Notes under the pieces: generated by a model | Seen by the model: the letters and a program-made list of their open reading frames with translations, nothing else | Database searches by the model: none | What the model was told of the DNA's origin: nothing | DNA from: an uncultured Ruminococcus sp. | GTDB lineage: Bacteria > Bacillota > Clostridia > Oscillospirales > Acutalibacteraceae | DNA: 36,365 bases | Assembly: GCA_902793125.1 (NCBI GenBank) | Contig: CADBCC010000033.1 | Location: 1 to 36,365, forward strand | Direction: 5' to 3' | Part shown: piece after piece, positions 2,707-31,025 of the stretch | How the letters are laid out: every line of letters starts with the position of its first letter | How positions within the stretch are numbered: position 1 is the stretch's first letter | Made by a program: the position numbers and the translations under genes

Positions 2707-2892
2707 ATGAATATTGTGATTACTGCCGTTATCATAGGAGTTTTATCTTCGGTAATAACCGCAAAAATAATAACCGCCCGGTATTTAAAACTACTGAGCG
2801 ATTATACAGAAAACAATTTAAAACAAACTAAAGACTTATTTAAGTGGTTTGTGTCTTTGTTCCAGGGAGAGGAGAAAGACAAACATCGGTAA
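2707..2892 (+). CDS. Small membrane protein, 61 residues
   Basis: The start is placed at ATG 2707 rather than GTG 2701 because AGAGGG ends about 7 bases upstream of 2707. One N-terminal membrane segment (IVITAVIIGVLSSVITAKII) is followed by a short charged cytoplasmic tail. It follows the Cro-like gene after operator O4. Its last 53 bases overlap the 3' end of the convergent Abi-alpha gene, so the two mRNAs would be complementary there. I do not recognise a family; small membrane proteins here are often superinfection-related, which is inference. Confidence 0.6.
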   Translation: MNIVITAVIIGVLSSVITAKIITARYLKLLSDYTENNLKQTKDLFKWFVSLFQGEEKDKHR

Positions 2893-3658
2893 AAGCTAAG
2901 CCTAACGGCGTGATAAAAGCAACACCTTTTTGAATTTTAATTATTTGGTCTAAGGTTTTATATCTGTTTACTAACGAAAGGTAAAAATCATTATTTTCAA
3001 AAATCTTATACATTGCGTCATTGGTAATGTATTTTTCATAATTAATTGATATTAACTCTAATCTTGATAGTGAAGAAATAGAAATCCCTTGCAAATCAAT
3101 ATCAGTACAGTTTAAATTTGACAAAAAAACATTTGATTTGATTACGTTATATTTTGTTTCTGAGTCATTTTGCGCCCTATATTCGCATAAAGGCAAATGA
3201 TTATTATTGCGAAATAGAGTAAGGTTTTGTGCATCAAGCGGAGATAACTGTTTAATTATCTCGGTGAAAGAGGGATGAACGTTAGAAATTTTTCTGCTAT
3301 CCATAGAATTAACTATTAATCTTTCAAACATTTTTCTAAGCTCATCTTCTTCATAATAAAACTTTGATGCTTCGAGCGCAGGTCCAACTACAGAAAGCTT
3401 AGGTTCTATGCGATTTTCTTCAGGAATGTTTTTTATATCATTATAAAGAGAAGCTTTAAAATCTTCTATATTCTTCTGATGCTTTATTCTGGATTTTTGG
3501 GCAGCTTCCCCCAATTTTCCGAAGCATAAATCGCAAATATCGCCTAATGCGTTTCCAATTGATTTTGTTGGTGGATTAGTTAAATTTTTTACTTGTTCAG
3601 ATTCGAGAACAGCTTTTACAGCGCCTTCTGTAGCGTCAACAGATTCTTGATTACTCAT
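2840..3658 (-). CDS. Abi-alpha (DUF4393) abortive-infection protein
   Basis: A 272-residue protein with the hallmarks of the DUF4393/Abi-alpha family: the N-terminal IGNALGDICDLCFG segment, the FKASLYNDIKNIPEENRIEP region, VVGPALEASKFYYEE, and HPSFTEIIKQLSPLDAQNL at about residues 125-145. In lactococci the family is linked to abortive infection, where an infected cell stops growth or dies before phage release. It lies opposite to its neighbours, between the switch and the early operon, with its own promoter at 3683-3711, the layout of a lysogenic conversion gene that defends the host against other phages. AGAAAGG precedes the ATG. The family call is strong; the mechanism is not known to me. 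Confidence 0.85.
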   Translation of the reverse strand: MSNQESVDATEGAVKAVLESEQVKNLTNPPTKSIGNALGDICDLCFGKLGEAAQKSRIKHQKNIEDFKASLYNDIKNIPEENRIEPKLSVVGPALEASKFYYEEDELRKMFERLIVNSMDSRKISNVHPSFTEIIKQLSPLDAQNLTLFRNNNHLPLCEYRAQNDSETKYNVIKSNVFLSNLNCTDIDLQGISISSLSRLELISINYEKYITNDAMYKIFENNDFYLSLVNRYKTLDQIIKIQKGVAFITPLGLAFTDVCLSPLPGTKTQTT

Positions 3659-7030: not shown

Positions 7031-7846
7031 ATGCGTTTATATAAATTCAATGAATACTATTGTGGAGAGAACTATCTCGATGTTCAAATCTATCCTGAGT
7101 ATTTAAAGCCGAGAAAAGGAAATAGAAAAAGAAAAGCTAAACCTACCTCAGAAGTTCAGAACGCTCTGAATCAGAATAACCGCGATCGTTATGTTTGCCG
7201 ACTTCTTAATCATAACTTCTCACCAAAAGATTATTGGGTAACCCTGACTTATGACGATGCACATTTACCCTACAGCTTTGATGCAGCGGAAAAAGAAGTT
7301 AATAACTACATCCGCAGAATTAAGAGCCTGGCTAAAAAGAAAAATCTACCCGCACCGAAAATAGTTAAGGTGACAGGTTACGGTGAGCGCCGGAAGAGAA
7401 TACATAGTCATTTAGTTATAAGCGGCGAACTTGCCGCGGTTGAGTTAAAAAACAAGTGGCGCGATAAGAACGGAGAGCTCCGCGGAAGAATAACAGTTGA
7501 TGCGCTTGAGTTCGATAAGTTTGGAGTGGAGAAGCTTGCAAACTACATAATTAAACATATTAACGAAAACAAACGCCGCAGCGGAAAATCCACTTATTAT
7601 CGCTCACGCAATTTAGAAGAACCGATGAAAAAACTCGCGGTCCGCCGTATAACTAACCGCGAAGTTGAGGATATAAGAACTTGTACTGATTACTCAGTAT
7701 TCGAGAAGATTTATCCCGAGTACGAATTTATCCGCCCGGAATATTACAAAGACGAATCTACACAGGAACGCGCAGTTTACTTTAACGAGCATAACGGCGG
7801 TTACTTTTTTCTGTTAAGGTTTTATAAGCCTGGGTACTGGAAATAA
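7031..7846 (+). CDS. HUH rolling-circle replication initiator (ORF2/G2P-like Rep)
   Basis: A 271-residue protein with the three motifs of HUH endonucleases in order: motif 1 WVTLTYDD (69-76), motif 2 with His125-Ser-His127 (RIHSHLVIS) that binds the metal, and motif 3 with Tyr172 and Lys175 (NYIIKHI), the nicking tyrosine. A single tyrosine fits Rep/ORF2-G2P proteins of inovirus, microvirus and ICE type. It would nick the origin and start rolling-circle replication. AGAGG precedes the ATG by 6 bases. No helicase, primase, polymerase or SSB gene occurs elsewhere in the visible prophage, so host enzymes must supply them. The C-terminal third has no clear motif. Confidence 0.87.
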   Translation: MRLYKFNEYYCGENYLDVQIYPEYLKPRKGNRKRKAKPTSEVQNALNQNNRDRYVCRLLNHNFSPKDYWVTLTYDDAHLPYSFDAAEKEVNNYIRRIKSLAKKKNLPAPKIVKVTGYGERRKRIHSHLVISGELAAVELKNKWRDKNGELRGRITVDALEFDKFGVEKLANYIIKHINENKRRSGKSTYYRSRNLEEPMKKLAVRRITNREVEDIRTCTDYSVFEKIYPEYEFIRPEYYKDESTQERAVYFNEHNGGYFFLLRFYKPGYWK

Positions 7847-27154: not shown

Positions 27155-27467
27155 TTTTGTATTTATTGTTTTATTCGTTGTGAGCGTACTCACGACATTA
27201 ACTGTGCAGGGTATTAAGTATATACTTGATACGCAGAACGCAAACTACAGCTCGAATATCTTAGCTGTAATAGTTTCTGTAGTTCTTTCGGTGTTTATAG
27301 TTTTCTTATATTGCTTATACTTTAATAAATCTCTCACTACTCAGATAATTGTTGAAACGGTAGTGCTGATGTATCTAAGCTTCCTTGTAGCAACAAATGG
27401 CTATGATAAAGTTATTCAGACTATTAAGCAGATACAGGGAAAGGTAGGCGATAAAAATGACAGCTAA
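27144..27467 (+). CDS. Putative holin, 107 residues, three membrane segments
   Basis: GAAAGGAAAAG precedes ATG 27144. Three hydrophobic segments (FVFIVLFVVSVLTTLTV; ILAVIVSVVLSVFIVFLYCL; IIVETVVLMYLSFLVA) and a charged tail. Overlaps the endolysin start by 11 bases. Size and placement support a holin. Confidence 0.72.
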   Translation: MGFNFVFIVLFVVSVLTTLTVQGIKYILDTQNANYSSNILAVIVSVVLSVFIVFLYCLYFNKSLTTQIIVETVVLMYLSFLVATNGYDKVIQTIKQIQGKVGDKNDS

Positions 27468-28329
27468 TGAATATATAAAAAAAGCCCGTTCCTACATTGG
27501 TACAAAGGACAACGGCAATAATAAGGTGAAATTCAACACCGAGTTTTACGGGCGTGAAGTCAGCGGCGACTCTTATCCGTGGTGTGTTGTATTCATTTGG
27601 TATGTATTTAAAAAGCTTGGCGCTTCAAATCTGTTTTGCGGCGGTAAGAAAGTAGCGAGTTGCGGGGTAGTAATATCCGAAATGGCGGCTCAGAAACACA
27701 GCTATAAAGAAACCCCGAAAAAAGGCGACCTTGTAATCTTCGATTTCAGCGGGAACCACACCGCGCATACGCACATCGGAGTTGTAAGCGAGGTAATTAA
27801 CTCAACCTCGTTTAAAACAATCGAAGGCAATACAAGCAACACTAACTACACAAACGGCGGTTACGTTCTCGAACAGACTCGTTACAACCGACAGGTAAAC
27901 TGCTTTATCCGCCCGAAATACGAAGCCGAAAAGAAAATAACCGCTGTCCTTAAAGACAACGGCGTGATTTATAAGTTTGCATATAAAGATATTATCGGCA
28001 AAAGCTCAAAGAAGCTCAAAGACTTGAAAAAAGGCGCGAAGGTTGAGCTGATACCAAATTCTGACGACGGCTACGGCTGGTCGAAAGTAAAAAGCGGAGA
28101 TGTAACGGGCTGGATTATGAACAGTCATCTCGAAGCTAAAGGCTTATCAAGCTTTAAAACCTACACGCTGAAAGCCGATAAAAAAGCGAAACCGATTAAA
28201 GATAAAAAGCTCGGCACCGAAGTTACTCTTAAAAAGGGTACGAAATACAAATCGATTTGCGAAATCGAAAACGGAGCTTACAAAGGCAAGTCTTACATCG
28301 GCGTAGGTAGTAAGCGATATTACATATAA
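27457..28329 (+). CDS. Endolysin: CHAP amidase/endopeptidase with SH3-like wall-binding end
   Basis: A 290-residue lysin. Residues 1-150 form a CHAP domain with Cys43 (YPWCVVFIWYVF), His106 (HTHIGVV) and Glu123/Asn125 (TIEGN), the usual catalytic set for cleaving peptidoglycan peptide bonds. Two SH3-like modules follow (about 157-210 ending SGDVTGWIM, and 225-290 starting YTLKADKK), which bind the cell wall. No signal peptide, so a holin is needed for export. Last protein-coding gene of the late operon. Confidence 0.93.
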   Translation: MTANEYIKKARSYIGTKDNGNNKVKFNTEFYGREVSGDSYPWCVVFIWYVFKKLGASNLFCGGKKVASCGVVISEMAAQKHSYKETPKKGDLVIFDFSGNHTAHTHIGVVSEVINSTSFKTIEGNTSNTNYTNGGYVLEQTRYNRQVNCFIRPKYEAEKKITAVLKDNGVIYKFAYKDIIGKSSKKLKDLKKGAKVELIPNSDDGYGWSKVKSGDVTGWIMNSHLEAKGLSSFKTYTLKADKKAKPIKDKKLGTEVTLKKGTKYKSICEIENGAYKGKSYIGVGSKRYYI

Positions 28330-28376
28330 GTAATATTTTGGATGTTTAAAAACGTACTTTTTTATCAATTACTCCC

Positions 28377-28406
28377 TTGATTTTATGCAGCTATTAACAA
28401 TTTAAT
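28377..28406 (+). promoter_or_regulatory. Candidate promoter of the structured RNA
   Basis: TTGATT (28377-28382) and TTTAAT (28401-28406) with an 18-base spacer, about 50 bases after the endolysin stop. Transcription would start near 28413, at the first hairpin. Match is moderate. Confidence 0.45.
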
Positions 28407-28410
28407 AGGA

Positions 28411-28625
28411 CTCCGCGCACCTCTCGGAGAAGTGGCACAGTCGGAGACGTTATATTGTCTTTATACACACCGTTCCCTCATTATCCAAGGAGTAACGGAG
28501 TATAAGGATAACTGAGCCGTTTAGCGGCAGCGCCCATCGGCGCAGTTAGTGATCGCGCTACAGATACTCGCGAGCCTGTAGCCCATAAAATGCCCCTCGG
28601 GGAATGAACTCCGAAGGGCATTTTT
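28411..28625 (+). ncRNA. Undescribed multi-hairpin RNA downstream of the endolysin
   Basis: About 215 bases, GC-richer than the flanks, with no reading frame. Helices in order: CTCCG/CGGAG (28411-28429); CCGTT/AACGG (28470-28498); a junction closed by AACT/AGTT (28510-28547) holding GCCG/CGGC (28516-28528) and GCGCC-CATC-GGCGC (28530-28543); GCTACAG/CTGTAGC (28557-28582); and a strong terminator (28587-28625). Three CGGAG copies allow alternative pairing with ACTCCG. I do not recognise a known family. Its location, late-operon end inside the prophage, suggests a lysogeny-expressed or late phage RNA. Confidence 0.55.
28587..28625 (+). terminator. Terminator of the structured RNA / late operon
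   Basis: AAAATGCCC (28587-28595) pairs with GGGCATTTT, extended inward by TCGG/CCGA, and ends in T5. One of the strongest terminators in the window. Confidence 0.9.
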
Positions 28626-28654
28626 GCGATTAAATTTTAATAATATATAGTAGT

Positions 28655-28680
28655 CCCCTCACAGCGTCGACTGTGAGGGG
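28655..28680. repeat. Perfect 10-bp inverted repeat with 6-base loop
   Basis: CCCCTCACAG and CTGTGAGGGG around CGTCGA. It is followed on the plus strand by A-rich, not T-rich, DNA, so it is not a standard terminator for rightward transcripts; on the minus strand the T-run precedes it. It may be a protein-binding site or an RNA element. Confidence 0.75.
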
Positions 28681-28797
28681 AAATAAAAAAATAAAAAAAC
28701 TTAAATATTCACTTGAAATATTAGTTCTATTATGTTATTCTTTATAATAAGATTGAGCAGGGGAACTAAGTGCCCCCCCGCTTCGGTTAACACATTT

Positions 28798-29004
28798 TTA
28801 ATCTCGCCAAGTGTTAGGATCGGCGATGATATTAATAATTAGTGTGTTAACAAAGTTTTGCACAGAATCGTAAATAAAAGACATGGTGTTCTGTGCCTCA
28901 CCAGCTGCCGTCAAGTAAATAAATAAAAGTAAAAGCGCCATGGCTAATACTATTATTTTTCTATTTGGCGGCGAGGTGAATCCAAAATTGAAAAATTTTT
29001 TCAT
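28798..29004 (-). CDS. Small membrane protein, 68 residues
   Basis: A leftward frame with one membrane segment (IIVLAMALLLLFIYLTAA, about residues 18-35) and an outside-type C-terminal part. The ATG follows ATGGGG at 9 bases, a weak ribosome-binding site. It is in the right arm of the prophage, opposite to the late operon, a place where lysogenic conversion genes are common. Not recognised; could be spurious. Confidence 0.45.
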   Translation of the reverse strand: MKKFFNFGFTSPPNRKIIVLAMALLLLFIYLTAAGEAQNTMSFIYDSVQNFVNTLIINIIADPNTWRD

Positions 29005-29051
29005 AGCAATACCCCATCTGTTGCCAAAATGTTTTACAAGCCGACTATATA

Positions 29052-29085
29052 AAAAGTCTCCGCTATTAAATAAACAGAGACTTTT
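29052..29085 (-). terminator. Terminator of the micro-ORF unit (bidirectional stem)
   Basis: AAAAGTCTC and GAGACTTTT form a 9-bp stem with a 16-base loop. On the minus strand it ends in TTTTTATAT, so it should stop leftward transcripts from 29208. Confidence 0.7.
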
Positions 29086-29127
29086 AATCCATTATTTATT
29101 ATGTAGTTAAGCGTGTTTATTTTTTTC

Positions 29128-29160
29128 TTATTCTATTTTCATAATCAAAAAATTAATCAT
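29128..29160 (-). CDS. Ten-residue micro-ORF (MINFLIMKIE)
   Basis: The ATG at 29160 has an ideal AGGAGT 7 bases upstream and a consensus-like promoter at 29208-29236, and a terminator follows at 29052. The unit is thus a complete small gene although the frame has only ten codons. It may be a leader peptide, a truncated small toxin, or the start of a frame lost by mutation. Confidence 0.4.
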   Translation of the reverse strand: MINFLIMKIE

Positions 29161-29207
29161 CGTTAATACTCCTATCGCGATCAACGCAAATATCTTAATA
29201 CTTTAAT

Positions 29208-29236
29208 ATTTTACATAACTTTTCTCAATTTATCAA
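29208..29236 (-). promoter_or_regulatory. Promoter of the micro-ORF unit
   Basis: On the minus strand TTGATA (29236-29231), a 17-base spacer and TAAAAT (29213-29208). Start near 29201. Confidence 0.65.
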
Positions 29237-29571
29237 GTGATTAAAATCGTTTTGTGCATTATTTTTTCATTTCGTTAATATGAACTAAAATTTGTAAAAA
29301 AATTTGGTTAAAAATACTATTGAAATAATGCCAAAATTGCGTTCTTTTATATTTTTTAAAATTTTATTTATGCAAAATGACTTTTTTTATTTATTAGAAT
29401 TAAATAAAGTGTATTAGTAATTTTTGTGGGTTTTTTTTATGAAAAGTCTTTTTTAGAGTTCAAAGGACAAAAAGCCTCTTTTTTTTTGTGCAAAATGACA
29501 TAATTTGACACCTAAGCAACAATCTATGAGTAGACTCATTATTATCTTAAAGAATATTTATAAATCTTTAT
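29237..29571. other. AT-rich stretch without a recognisable gene
   Basis: Very AT-rich right-arm DNA with several T-runs (for example near 29431 and 29481). No frame with a ribosome-binding site, no clear hairpin of note. The frame from a TTG at 29505 runs through promoter and attachment DNA and is not credible. Confidence 0.6.
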
Positions 29572-29599
29572 TTGACATATTGATGAAATTCTATATAAT
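29572..29599 (+). promoter_or_regulatory. Strong promoter reading toward attR
   Basis: TTGACA (29572-29577) and TATAAT (29594-29599), both consensus, 16-base spacer. It points out of the prophage across the tRNA fragment. In the excised circle it would read through attP into the other phage end. Confidence 0.7.
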
Positions 29600-29652
29600 C
29601 GCAGAACAAATCATGGAAATATATAGTGTATATGAACGAGTGACTTTTAGAA

Positions 29653-29672
29653 TTGCTACGGCGTTGCTACGG
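29653..29672 (+). repeat. Direct repeat TTGCTACGG x2, candidate integrase arm sites
   Basis: Two identical 9-mers at 29653-29661 and 29664-29672, an 11-bp period (about one helical turn), 58 bp left of the tRNA core. Tyrosine integrases of Gram-positive phages bind such short direct repeats in the arms of attP. Confidence 0.5.
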
Positions 29673-29729
29673 ATTATATTAATTTGTAATGTAAATATCA
29701 GTAAATAAGCCAAGGTTAAATAATGGAAT

Positions 29730-29779
29730 TATGACTGTTAATCATGATGTCACTGGTTCGAGCCCAGTTGGGGGAGCCA
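29730..29779 (+). other. attR: 3' fragment of a tRNA-Asn gene
   Basis: From 29730 the sequence follows a tRNA-Asn from the anticodon arm to the 3' end: stem ATGA/TCAT around the loop CTGTTAA with anticodon GTT, variable loop, T-arm ACTGG-TTCGAGC-CCAGT, the acceptor strand TGGGGGA, and GCCA. No matching D-arm or 5' acceptor (expected TCCCCCA) occurs upstream, so it is not a functional tRNA. Such 3' fragments arise when a phage integrates in a tRNA gene and restores it at the other end. Confidence 0.85.
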
Positions 29780-29783
29780 AAAC

Positions 29784-29812
29784 AAAAGCAGACTTAGGTC
29801 TGCTTTTTGTTT
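29784..29812 (+). terminator. Terminator after the tRNA fragment
   Basis: AAAAGCAGAC-TTAG-GTCTGCTTTT, a perfect 10-bp stem with T-runs on both strands, so it can work in both directions. It is probably the original terminator of the host tRNA-Asn gene. Confidence 0.88.
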
Positions 29813-29825
29813 TGCTCTATAAAAT

Positions 29826-29962
29826 CTCCTCGAAGGTCCGCGTCTCGGAAAAAGCTCCGGTGTGAGCTTTTTCAGCGGACTGGATTTAGTCCGAGGATAA
29901 GCTCTTAACCGATTTTCCAAGCGAGCACTAAGTTCTCGTATAGCTGAACATAAGTTGGGGAG
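29826..29962. ncRNA. Structured intergenic stretch, possible RNA
   Basis: An outer helix CTCCTCGA/TTGGGGAG (29826-29833 with 29955-29962, two wobble pairs) encloses GTCCGC/GCGGAC (29836-29880) capped by AAAAAGCTC/GAGCTTTTT (29849-29872). No credible frame covers it. On the minus strand it would be ended by the stem at 29784-29812. No known family recognised; it may just be paired terminators. Confidence 0.35.
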
Positions 29963-30063
29963 CTGTTTCAATCAGTAATTCGTAATTCGCAATTGTTTTA
30001 TTTTCATTGTATTTAGAAAAGCAGGTTTCGAAAGTCCACGCGAAAAAATAAATTGACTGAATA

Positions 30064-30099
30064 TTTACAATAGACAAGTGTAAATTTTTGTGTTATTAT
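30064..30099 (+). promoter_or_regulatory. Promoter with overlapping palindrome
   Basis: TAGACA (30071-30076), 17-base spacer, TATTAT (30094-30099). The palindrome TTTACA-N9-TGTAAA (30064-30084) covers the -35 box and could bind a repressor of the downstream membrane protein gene. Confidence 0.5.
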
Positions 30100-30167
30100 T
30101 ATAAAGTGAAGGTTTTTAATTAAAGAAAATTATGTAATATTATATAAAACCGGAGCGAGGTGTTTAT

Positions 30168-31025
30168 ATGAGTAAGAAAGACATTGGTAAAACCGTAGGA
30201 AAGGGAGTAAGCGCGTTTACCATTATTATGGAAAGTAAACTCGTCAGTATCGGATTTTTATTGTTTACAGGTGTAATGCACATTATTGATCCGAGCGGTG
30301 GTCTGAATGTTACCGCCAAATTGCTTGCGGGATTCGTTGCGCTCTACGCTATACTCTCATTTTTCTATGTCATTTCGAACAACAATTCGAATCTCGAAAA
30401 AGGAAAAGACTTTGCGAGCAATTTTGTCAGAGGTGTTATTGAGGACAACAAAGATCCTATTGCTCAGGGACAGGAGCTTAATTCAAAGTATGAAGAAATA
30501 AACGAACTGCAAAGAGAATCGAACACTAAGTGGGATAAAAGAATTAATGCTCTTTTTGAAAAGCCGAAGGAAGAGCCTAAAGCGGGCAAAATCGCAAGGT
30601 GTATTTTATATGCTATACTTTTTGTCAGTGCGGTGATTCTCTTCTTCTGTTCAGATATTACCATAGTAGCGATTCATATTATTGTCGGAATTTTTCTTAT
30701 TACCGATGGTTATTCCAGCGTCTCGACAATCATTACGGCAAAAAGAAACGGTGTGCCGATGAAAGGTAAAAGAATTTCCTTGGTTGCTAATATATTTTCA
30801 ATTGTACTCGGTATAGCTTTTATTTTAATGGCGCGCAGTATGGCTGAAATTACAATGGTAATCGGCGGTATAACGCTTCTTATCAAAGGCTTGACGGATT
30901 TGTTCGTTATGATTCAAAACAGAGAAATACTCACCTCTGCGAAAGGTACTATTAACCAGATAAAACAGCAGGGAAACGAAGAATCGTCTGATGAGTTATT
31001 AAACTCCAATGAAAAAACTGAATAA
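30168..31025 (+). CDS. DUF308/HdeD-like membrane protein
   Basis: A 285-residue membrane protein of the host. Two N-terminal membrane segments (about 20-36 and 48-68), a charged cytoplasmic stretch of about 65 residues (EEINELQRESNTKWDKR), then four more segments (CILYAILFVSAVILFFC; ITIVAIHIIVGIFLIT; ISLVANIFSIVLGIAFILMA; MVIGGITLLIKGLTDLF). The paired segment pattern and Gly positions are like DUF308 (HdeD) proteins. GGAGCGAGG precedes the ATG. Role unknown; likely co-expressed with the next gene 36 bases on. Confidence 0.75.
   Translation: MSKKDIGKTVGKGVSAFTIIMESKLVSIGFLLFTGVMHIIDPSGGLNVTAKLLAGFVALYAILSFFYVISNNNSNLEKGKDFASNFVRGVIEDNKDPIAQGQELNSKYEEINELQRESNTKWDKRINALFEKPKEEPKAGKIARCILYAILFVSAVILFFCSDITIVAIHIIVGIFLITDGYSSVSTIITAKRNGVPMKGKRISLVANIFSIVLGIAFILMARSMAEITMVIGGITLLIKGLTDLFVMIQNREILTSAKGTINQIKQQGNEESSDELLNSNEKTE

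Follow-up and report, generated by a model that had tools for sequence, protein, structure and literature searches.

Between the endolysin gene and the right attachment site of a prophage in an uncultured Ruminococcus sp. lies a hairpin-rich element (28377-28625) that raises the question of whether it is a functional RNA, and if so, of what kind and from which strand. The window, meaning the whole stretch of 36,365 nucleotides analysed here, is one entire contig (C33) of a 2.0-Mb genome. A sequence-only reading had taken the element for an undescribed structured RNA standing in place of a gene where the late operon ends, with a junction, a candidate promoter of its own, a strong terminator and a suggested conformational switch. 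The outline of this description is right, while its account of structure, promoter and switch is overly detailed. The explanation that we favour, at about an even chance, is that the element forms the untranslated 3' end of the prophage late (head-tail-lysis) transcript, possibly with an accessory prophage RNA within it. As a functional RNA it is a weak and unproven candidate, the transcription of which is plausible.

Profile scans of the ORFs indicate that the window carries most of one prophage, from the repressor through the CHAP endolysin, and host-like genes begin at 30168 (Table 1). The element lies 3' of the endolysin gene, which is the last of the late operon, as had been described. 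It falls inside the prophage because attR is located further downstream; at a distance of 1.1 kb this rules out a host origin. Among the loci compared, those from four other genomes of the genus (L089/G059, L044/G080:C10, L068/G071:C3 and L087/G015:C38), whose late ends are related, contain the 47 nucleotides of attR unchanged. The tRNA they belong to is presumably tRNA-Asn, going by the anticodon. ARAGORN reported no tRNA or tmRNA gene in the whole window, which leaves the element without such an identity; its silence at attR is to be expected, the tRNA gene there being partial. Upstream of attR, short motifs (GTTGCTAC-like and AATAAGCCAA-like) recur in most of the four loci and may be integrase arm sites. 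A direct-repeat comparison of the first 1250 bases with 28330-30200 returned nothing beyond matches of at most 18 nt that could mark attL, and no integrase was found among the 35 distinct ORFs scanned (of 86 ORFs of at least 60 aa) in 1-29732. Another contig probably carries the left end. Next to the repressor, a gene of the Abi_alpha family (2840-3658, minus; Pfam PF14337, E 1.4e-49) is a possible superinfection-exclusion gene.

Table 1. Features of the prophage and of the element (window positions)
Feature	Position	Strand	Details
cI-like repressor	1618-2292	minus	
Replication initiator	7031		
Large terminase	9040		
Portal, protease, tape measure and tail genes			
CHAP-domain endolysin, final late-operon gene	27457-28329	+	Pfam CHAP E 8e-12; PHROGs endolysin E 3.6e-28
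Perfect 7-bp AT-rich hairpin (CTATTAA/TTAATAG)	28391-28408	+	from the fold; forms on both strands
5' hairpin region	28409-28442		CTCCG/CGGAG hairpin on + (28411-28429), or longer 34-nt hairpin, better paired on minus
Proposed junction-closing helix, weakly predicted	28434-28583 (28434-28446 with 28567-28583)	+	pairs at 0.26 with upstream sequence and terminator included
Long hairpin P2: stem of 12 bp, two of them G-U, continued by CCGTT/AACGG	28455-28511	+	two tested pairs, 0.94 and 1.0
Short hairpin GCCGT-TTA-GCGGC	28516-28528	+	tested pair 0.87
Short GC hairpin GCGCC-CATC-GGCGC	28530-28543	+	tested pair 0.96
Terminator-like hairpin, then TTTTT	28587-28625	+	-22.1 kcal/mol on +, -23.1 on minus; inverted repeat I2
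attR, 47-nt 3' part of tRNA gene, prophage right end	29733-29779	+	identical in four other genomes

The element is noncoding, as the sequence-only reading had it. When ORFs of at least 20 aa are considered, 28369-28640 contains none of gene size, the longest (46 aa) being on the minus strand with its start inside the terminator hairpin. The strong terminator that had been described is likewise present as a terminator-like hairpin followed by a T-run, although a simple terminator scan omits it. The same scan detected no plus-strand terminator from the endolysin stop to 28587, which is weak evidence of read-through since the scan also misses the hairpin at 28587.

Membership of a known family is not apparent. 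Infernal searches with Rfam 15 gave no match at gathering score over the whole window, and with lax thresholds all matches in 28300-29000 (14) and 28380-28586 (one) fell below the gathering scores, in agreement with the earlier assignment to no known family. The profiles of ROOL and GOLLD, according to the available text of PMC12286853, were taken from Rfam, where the element has no match, and it measures at most about 295 nt. As that text describes them, ROOL and GOLLD resemble the element in their phage or prophage setting, in being structured RNAs and in having no known function, but are larger and often lie near tRNA islands (PMC12286853). Small RNAs carried by prophages, IpeX among them, limit other phages or target host mRNAs, as far as the accessible parts of two papers go (PMC12803456, PMC12197685). 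IpeX and DicF share with the element the proposed origin of a noncoding RNA from a prophage transcript, the supply of which would depend on a longer RNA; they are, however, E. coli RNAs in the portion available (PMC12197685), while the element is known from sequence and its relation to them was judged through Rfam alone. Similarly, svsR, which limits phage infection in E. coli, is a hairpin RNA of a prophage, as proposed for the element, but the available text places it at the 3' end of cI with 77 nt aligned with co293 (PMC12803456), whereas the element is at the late end and spans about 215-295 nt. A literature search for a structured noncoding RNA of a prophage located with an endolysin found no paper.

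How unusual is the fold? Over its full length (249 nt) the element has a predicted energy of -85.2 kcal/mol (z -4.03), and none of 200 shuffles was as stable. Without the terminator, the core (28409-28586) gave z -2.52 on the plus strand (3 of 150 shuffles as stable) and z -3.16 on the minus strand (1 of 150). P2, the long hairpin, reached z -4.29 by itself (1 of 150); with P2 taken out, the core gave only z -0.47 (46 of 150). The excess stability is thus mainly that of the long hairpin and the terminator. As a yardstick, 240 windows of 178 nt from the contig (120 positions on both strands, one of which, 28400-28577, overlaps the element) were folded with 60 shuffles each. In this run the plus-strand core (z -2.2) was equalled or passed by 18 of the 240 windows and the minus-strand core (z -3.6) by six; a raw energy as low as that of the respective core was seen in one of the 18 and in none of the six. 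Taken with the z-scores of the parts, the yardstick indicates that the hairpins are real, yet that the plus-strand core is only mildly unusual. Of the multi-helix element described earlier, the well-folded hairpins hold up, and the core without P2 is ordinary.

The proposed junction fared less well. In the isolated core its closing helix is predicted with pair probabilities of up to 0.88, which drop to the value in Table 1 once the upstream sequence and the terminator are included, and a fold lacking the helix is equally stable (-63.0 vs -63.1). A third fold, in which CTCCG pairs with the second CGGAG, comes to -62.0; P2 and P4 are kept across the competing folds. Nor did a promoter scan bear out the suggested promoter: none of its 11 promoter-like sites lies on the plus strand between 28330 and 28450, and in TTGATT-18-TTTAAT, found by eye upstream of 28411, the second base of the -10 box does not match.

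The suggested switch relies on CGGAG (at 28425, 28442 and 28496) pairing alternatively with ACTCCG (at 28410 and 28608). At least three copies of CGGAG occurred in 0.3% of 20,000 shuffles, and together with at least two of ACTCCG in none. The words are over-represented, but were picked after the sequence had been read; some 5-mer with at least three copies and at least two reverse complements was present in 10.7% of 2000 shuffles. Further, for the CTCCG of the terminator to pair with a CGGAG copy, whichever of the three, the terminator must open at a cost of about 11 to 20 kcal/mol, so that a switch of the terminator in the form drawn is implausible. What survives of the claim is the richness in these words, not the specific switch. 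With regard to riboswitches and other switches, the alternative folds are within 1.1 kcal/mol of one another, and no plus-strand ORF of at least 70 aa occurs before attR.

Relatives of the element were sought at several levels. Neither 50,697 phage records nor 72,556 plasmid records contained anything similar. In 150 genomes of the genus, a DNA search returned, besides the window, only matches of at most 35 nt (best E 1.3e-4); weak matches at E up to 1 were spread over 93 of the 150, the source genome included. By eye, those at L002, L018 and L027 are one recurring coding-like stretch in different genomes, which we take to be rlmN-like, and that at L030 is another, presumably hflX-like; both were dismissed as chance. 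In a sample of 398 genomes from the family, five matches of at most 25 nt were found apart from the window (E up to 0.02). The endolysin itself has relatives in 37 of 161 genus genomes, source included (E up to 1e-20). The DNA downstream of 15 of these loci (13 with 950-1260 bases, two with about 60) showed no match on the plus strand, and a search of all 34 relative loci on both strands yielded one 22-nt match (L052, 91%, E 0.006 by blast) and three of 13 nt.

Covariance models built from the single sequence were no more productive. On either strand, they detected only the window in the 161 genus genomes, plus one chance match: the hit in G050 (25.7 bits, E 9.6e-5), the only one outside the source genome, lies inside an open frame that is presumably rpoC-like. 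The plus-strand model matched the window alone in the 398 family genomes. Among the collected loci (24, 15, 7 and 25 sources for the plus model, 34 and 30 for the minus model) nothing but the window exceeded 11.5 bits; the hit with that score, in L112 (E 0.089), sits in an open frame that spans 132 codons or more and was rejected, and the others all have E of at least 0.75 (L034 6.7 bits, L114 8.1, L121 5.0, L117 8.1, L047 7.4). In a viral collection, protein scans (0, 4, 0 and 7 loci) and pattern scans (0, 4 and 3 contigs) led to no credible match. As the genome searches used the stricter filters of Infernal and a single-sequence model reaches near relatives only, a diverged family could escape detection. 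As no homologue was found, nothing points to selection on the RNA.

The sole hint of a relative, an inverted one, comes from aligning the element with a hairpin-rich stretch of L089 on the opposite strand. With lenient gaps the score was 266 against a mean of 170, above all 200 mononucleotide shuffles, in one of ten comparisons; a slightly longer stretch gave 315 against 204 (maximum 287). Stricter gaps reduced this to 111 against 81 (maximum 125), and the strictest to 71 against 66 (maximum 94). Because the signal fades with the gap penalty and the shuffles do not preserve dinucleotides, homology is not demonstrated. An unfiltered model search of L089 1-900 scored 2.2 bits at best.

The 1.4-kb interval from endolysin to attR, in which all plus-strand ORFs are shorter than 70 aa, differs in content among relatives. 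In the second prophage of the source genome (84% endolysin), by eye, the gene is immediately followed by a terminator-like hairpin, and nothing comparable to the element is present. In L089, the nearest prophage by terminase (80%; endolysin 74%), the endolysin is followed by a 123-aa ORF (503-874, minus, G059:C14) that matches the Acb2/Tad1 hairpin domain (Pfam PF24729, E 3.8e-6; 27.4 bits, cut-off 27) and that we take to be a candidate anti-CBASS gene. After this ORF comes a hairpin-rich stretch of its own, unrelated to the element, and then the same attR. This stretch matched only itself in 161 genomes; on the reversed locus the 120-nt window at 7600 has z -3.4, with -3.8 and -3.5 where the terminator-like hairpin is reached and -2.2 or weaker elsewhere. 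L084, a 62% relative, contains at 3294-3515, by eye, TTGACA-17-TATACT, a noncoding stretch that is rich in hairpins and enclosed by AATGCTAT/ATAGCATT, and a strong terminator-like hairpin (z -7.3 in the terminator window), and is a better small-RNA candidate than the element. In L068, 3' of the endolysin (2488-2663, minus, G071:C3), a short ORF, a promoter-like TATAAT and a hairpin with a terminal T-run were noticed by eye, possibly a cargo RNA or a type I pair in the slot. Since relatives carry differing cargo in the same place, the endolysin-attR interval looks like an accessory slot.

If the element is the 3' end of the late transcript, RNA polymerase starting from the late promoter would continue beyond the endolysin stop (28329) through about 295 noncoding, hairpin-rich nucleotides and halt at the terminator-like hairpin. 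The hairpins would shield the 3' end of this transcript, and cleavage may release them as a small RNA at the time of lysis. As relatives have other content in the slot, the element would be accessory cargo and not a core phage function. We counted for this reading the missing gene-sized ORF, the stable hairpins, the plus-strand terminator-like hairpin, the placement by attR and the variable slot, and against it the better minus-strand fold, the lack of a homologue, a stability that stems from one hairpin and the terminator, and the 18 of 240 windows. A bolder extension, which we consider quite improbable, is that in this group of Clostridia prophages the slot accommodates, as an accessory locus, structured RNAs that evolve fast and also anti-defence proteins, the element being one such RNA directed against host defence or rival phages, and the class being recognisable by position and layout and not by sequence.

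The late-transcript reading has to be weighed against the absence of any functional RNA, the locus being a fast-changing spacer of palindromes and terminators by the attachment site, a residue of cargo-gene turnover. This is somewhat unlikely. It would fit the failure to find a homologue in the genus or the family sample and the ordinary core without P2, and unusually folded windows extend on both strands to about 29170, so that the element is not distinct from its surroundings. However, P2 alone is strongly stable with near-certain pairing, and the GC content (150-nt windows) is 0.38-0.53 in 28300-28689 vs 0.15-0.37 in 28600-29769. Very unlikely, in our view, is a prophage small-RNA gene that is independent, driven by a promoter of its own near 28377 and acting in trans on transcripts of the host or of superinfecting phages. 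The by-eye promoter, the clearer unit in the same slot of L084 and, in the text available, the precedents svsR (PMC12803456) and IpeX and others (PMC12197685) speak for it, but the scan gave no plus-strand promoter-like site, and matches of the host genome within 28377-28625 are limited to 23 and 17 nt (both E 4.87), with no extended target match.

Finally, the RNA could come from the minus strand as a linear series of well-defined hairpins, read leftwards in the direction of the endolysin gene from a start at about 28630 and perhaps antisense to the late transcript where it ends. The minus fold is more stable (-68.2 vs -59.5), its centroid equals the minimum-energy fold save for one pair, and its yardstick rank is the better one. 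The 34-nt hairpin 28409-28442 has G-U pairs on the minus strand where the plus strand has A-C mismatches, and a promoter-like site (9/12) lies at 28670-28642 on the minus strand. Against these points, the G-U pairs of the outer P2 stem on the plus strand become mismatches on the minus strand, leftwards of the element the scan listed no minus-strand terminator before 27963-27940, which is within the endolysin gene, and the minus covariance model is also without a homologue. The terminator-like hairpin is followed by five T on the plus strand and four on the minus strand. A minus-strand RNA is unlikely overall; the strand is uncertain, with plus the more likely, and is preferred because of the terminator and the upstream late operon, not because of the fold.

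To our knowledge, few prophage-carried noncoding RNAs are known in Clostridia, and the element, if transcribed, would add one. The practical gain is the locus, in that the interval between endolysin and tRNA-borne attR is where, in this group of prophages, anti-defence genes and cargo RNAs can be sought.

The slot of the window holds two further structures. A perfect 11-bp hairpin (28654-28681, TCCCCTCACAG/CTGTGAGGGGA) is followed on the plus strand by A-runs and not T-runs, and hence is no ordinary terminator in either direction. Beyond it, 28756-29236 on the minus strand is a possible small-gene unit, with a promoter-like TTGATA-17-TAAAAT (10/12), a 68-aa ORF (28798-29004) that includes a hydrophobic stretch and a terminator-like hairpin (28782-28756), and without a family match above cut-off. 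A plus-strand promoter-like site with TG (28713-28741) aims into this unit, a layout that we take to be like that of type I toxin-antitoxin loci.
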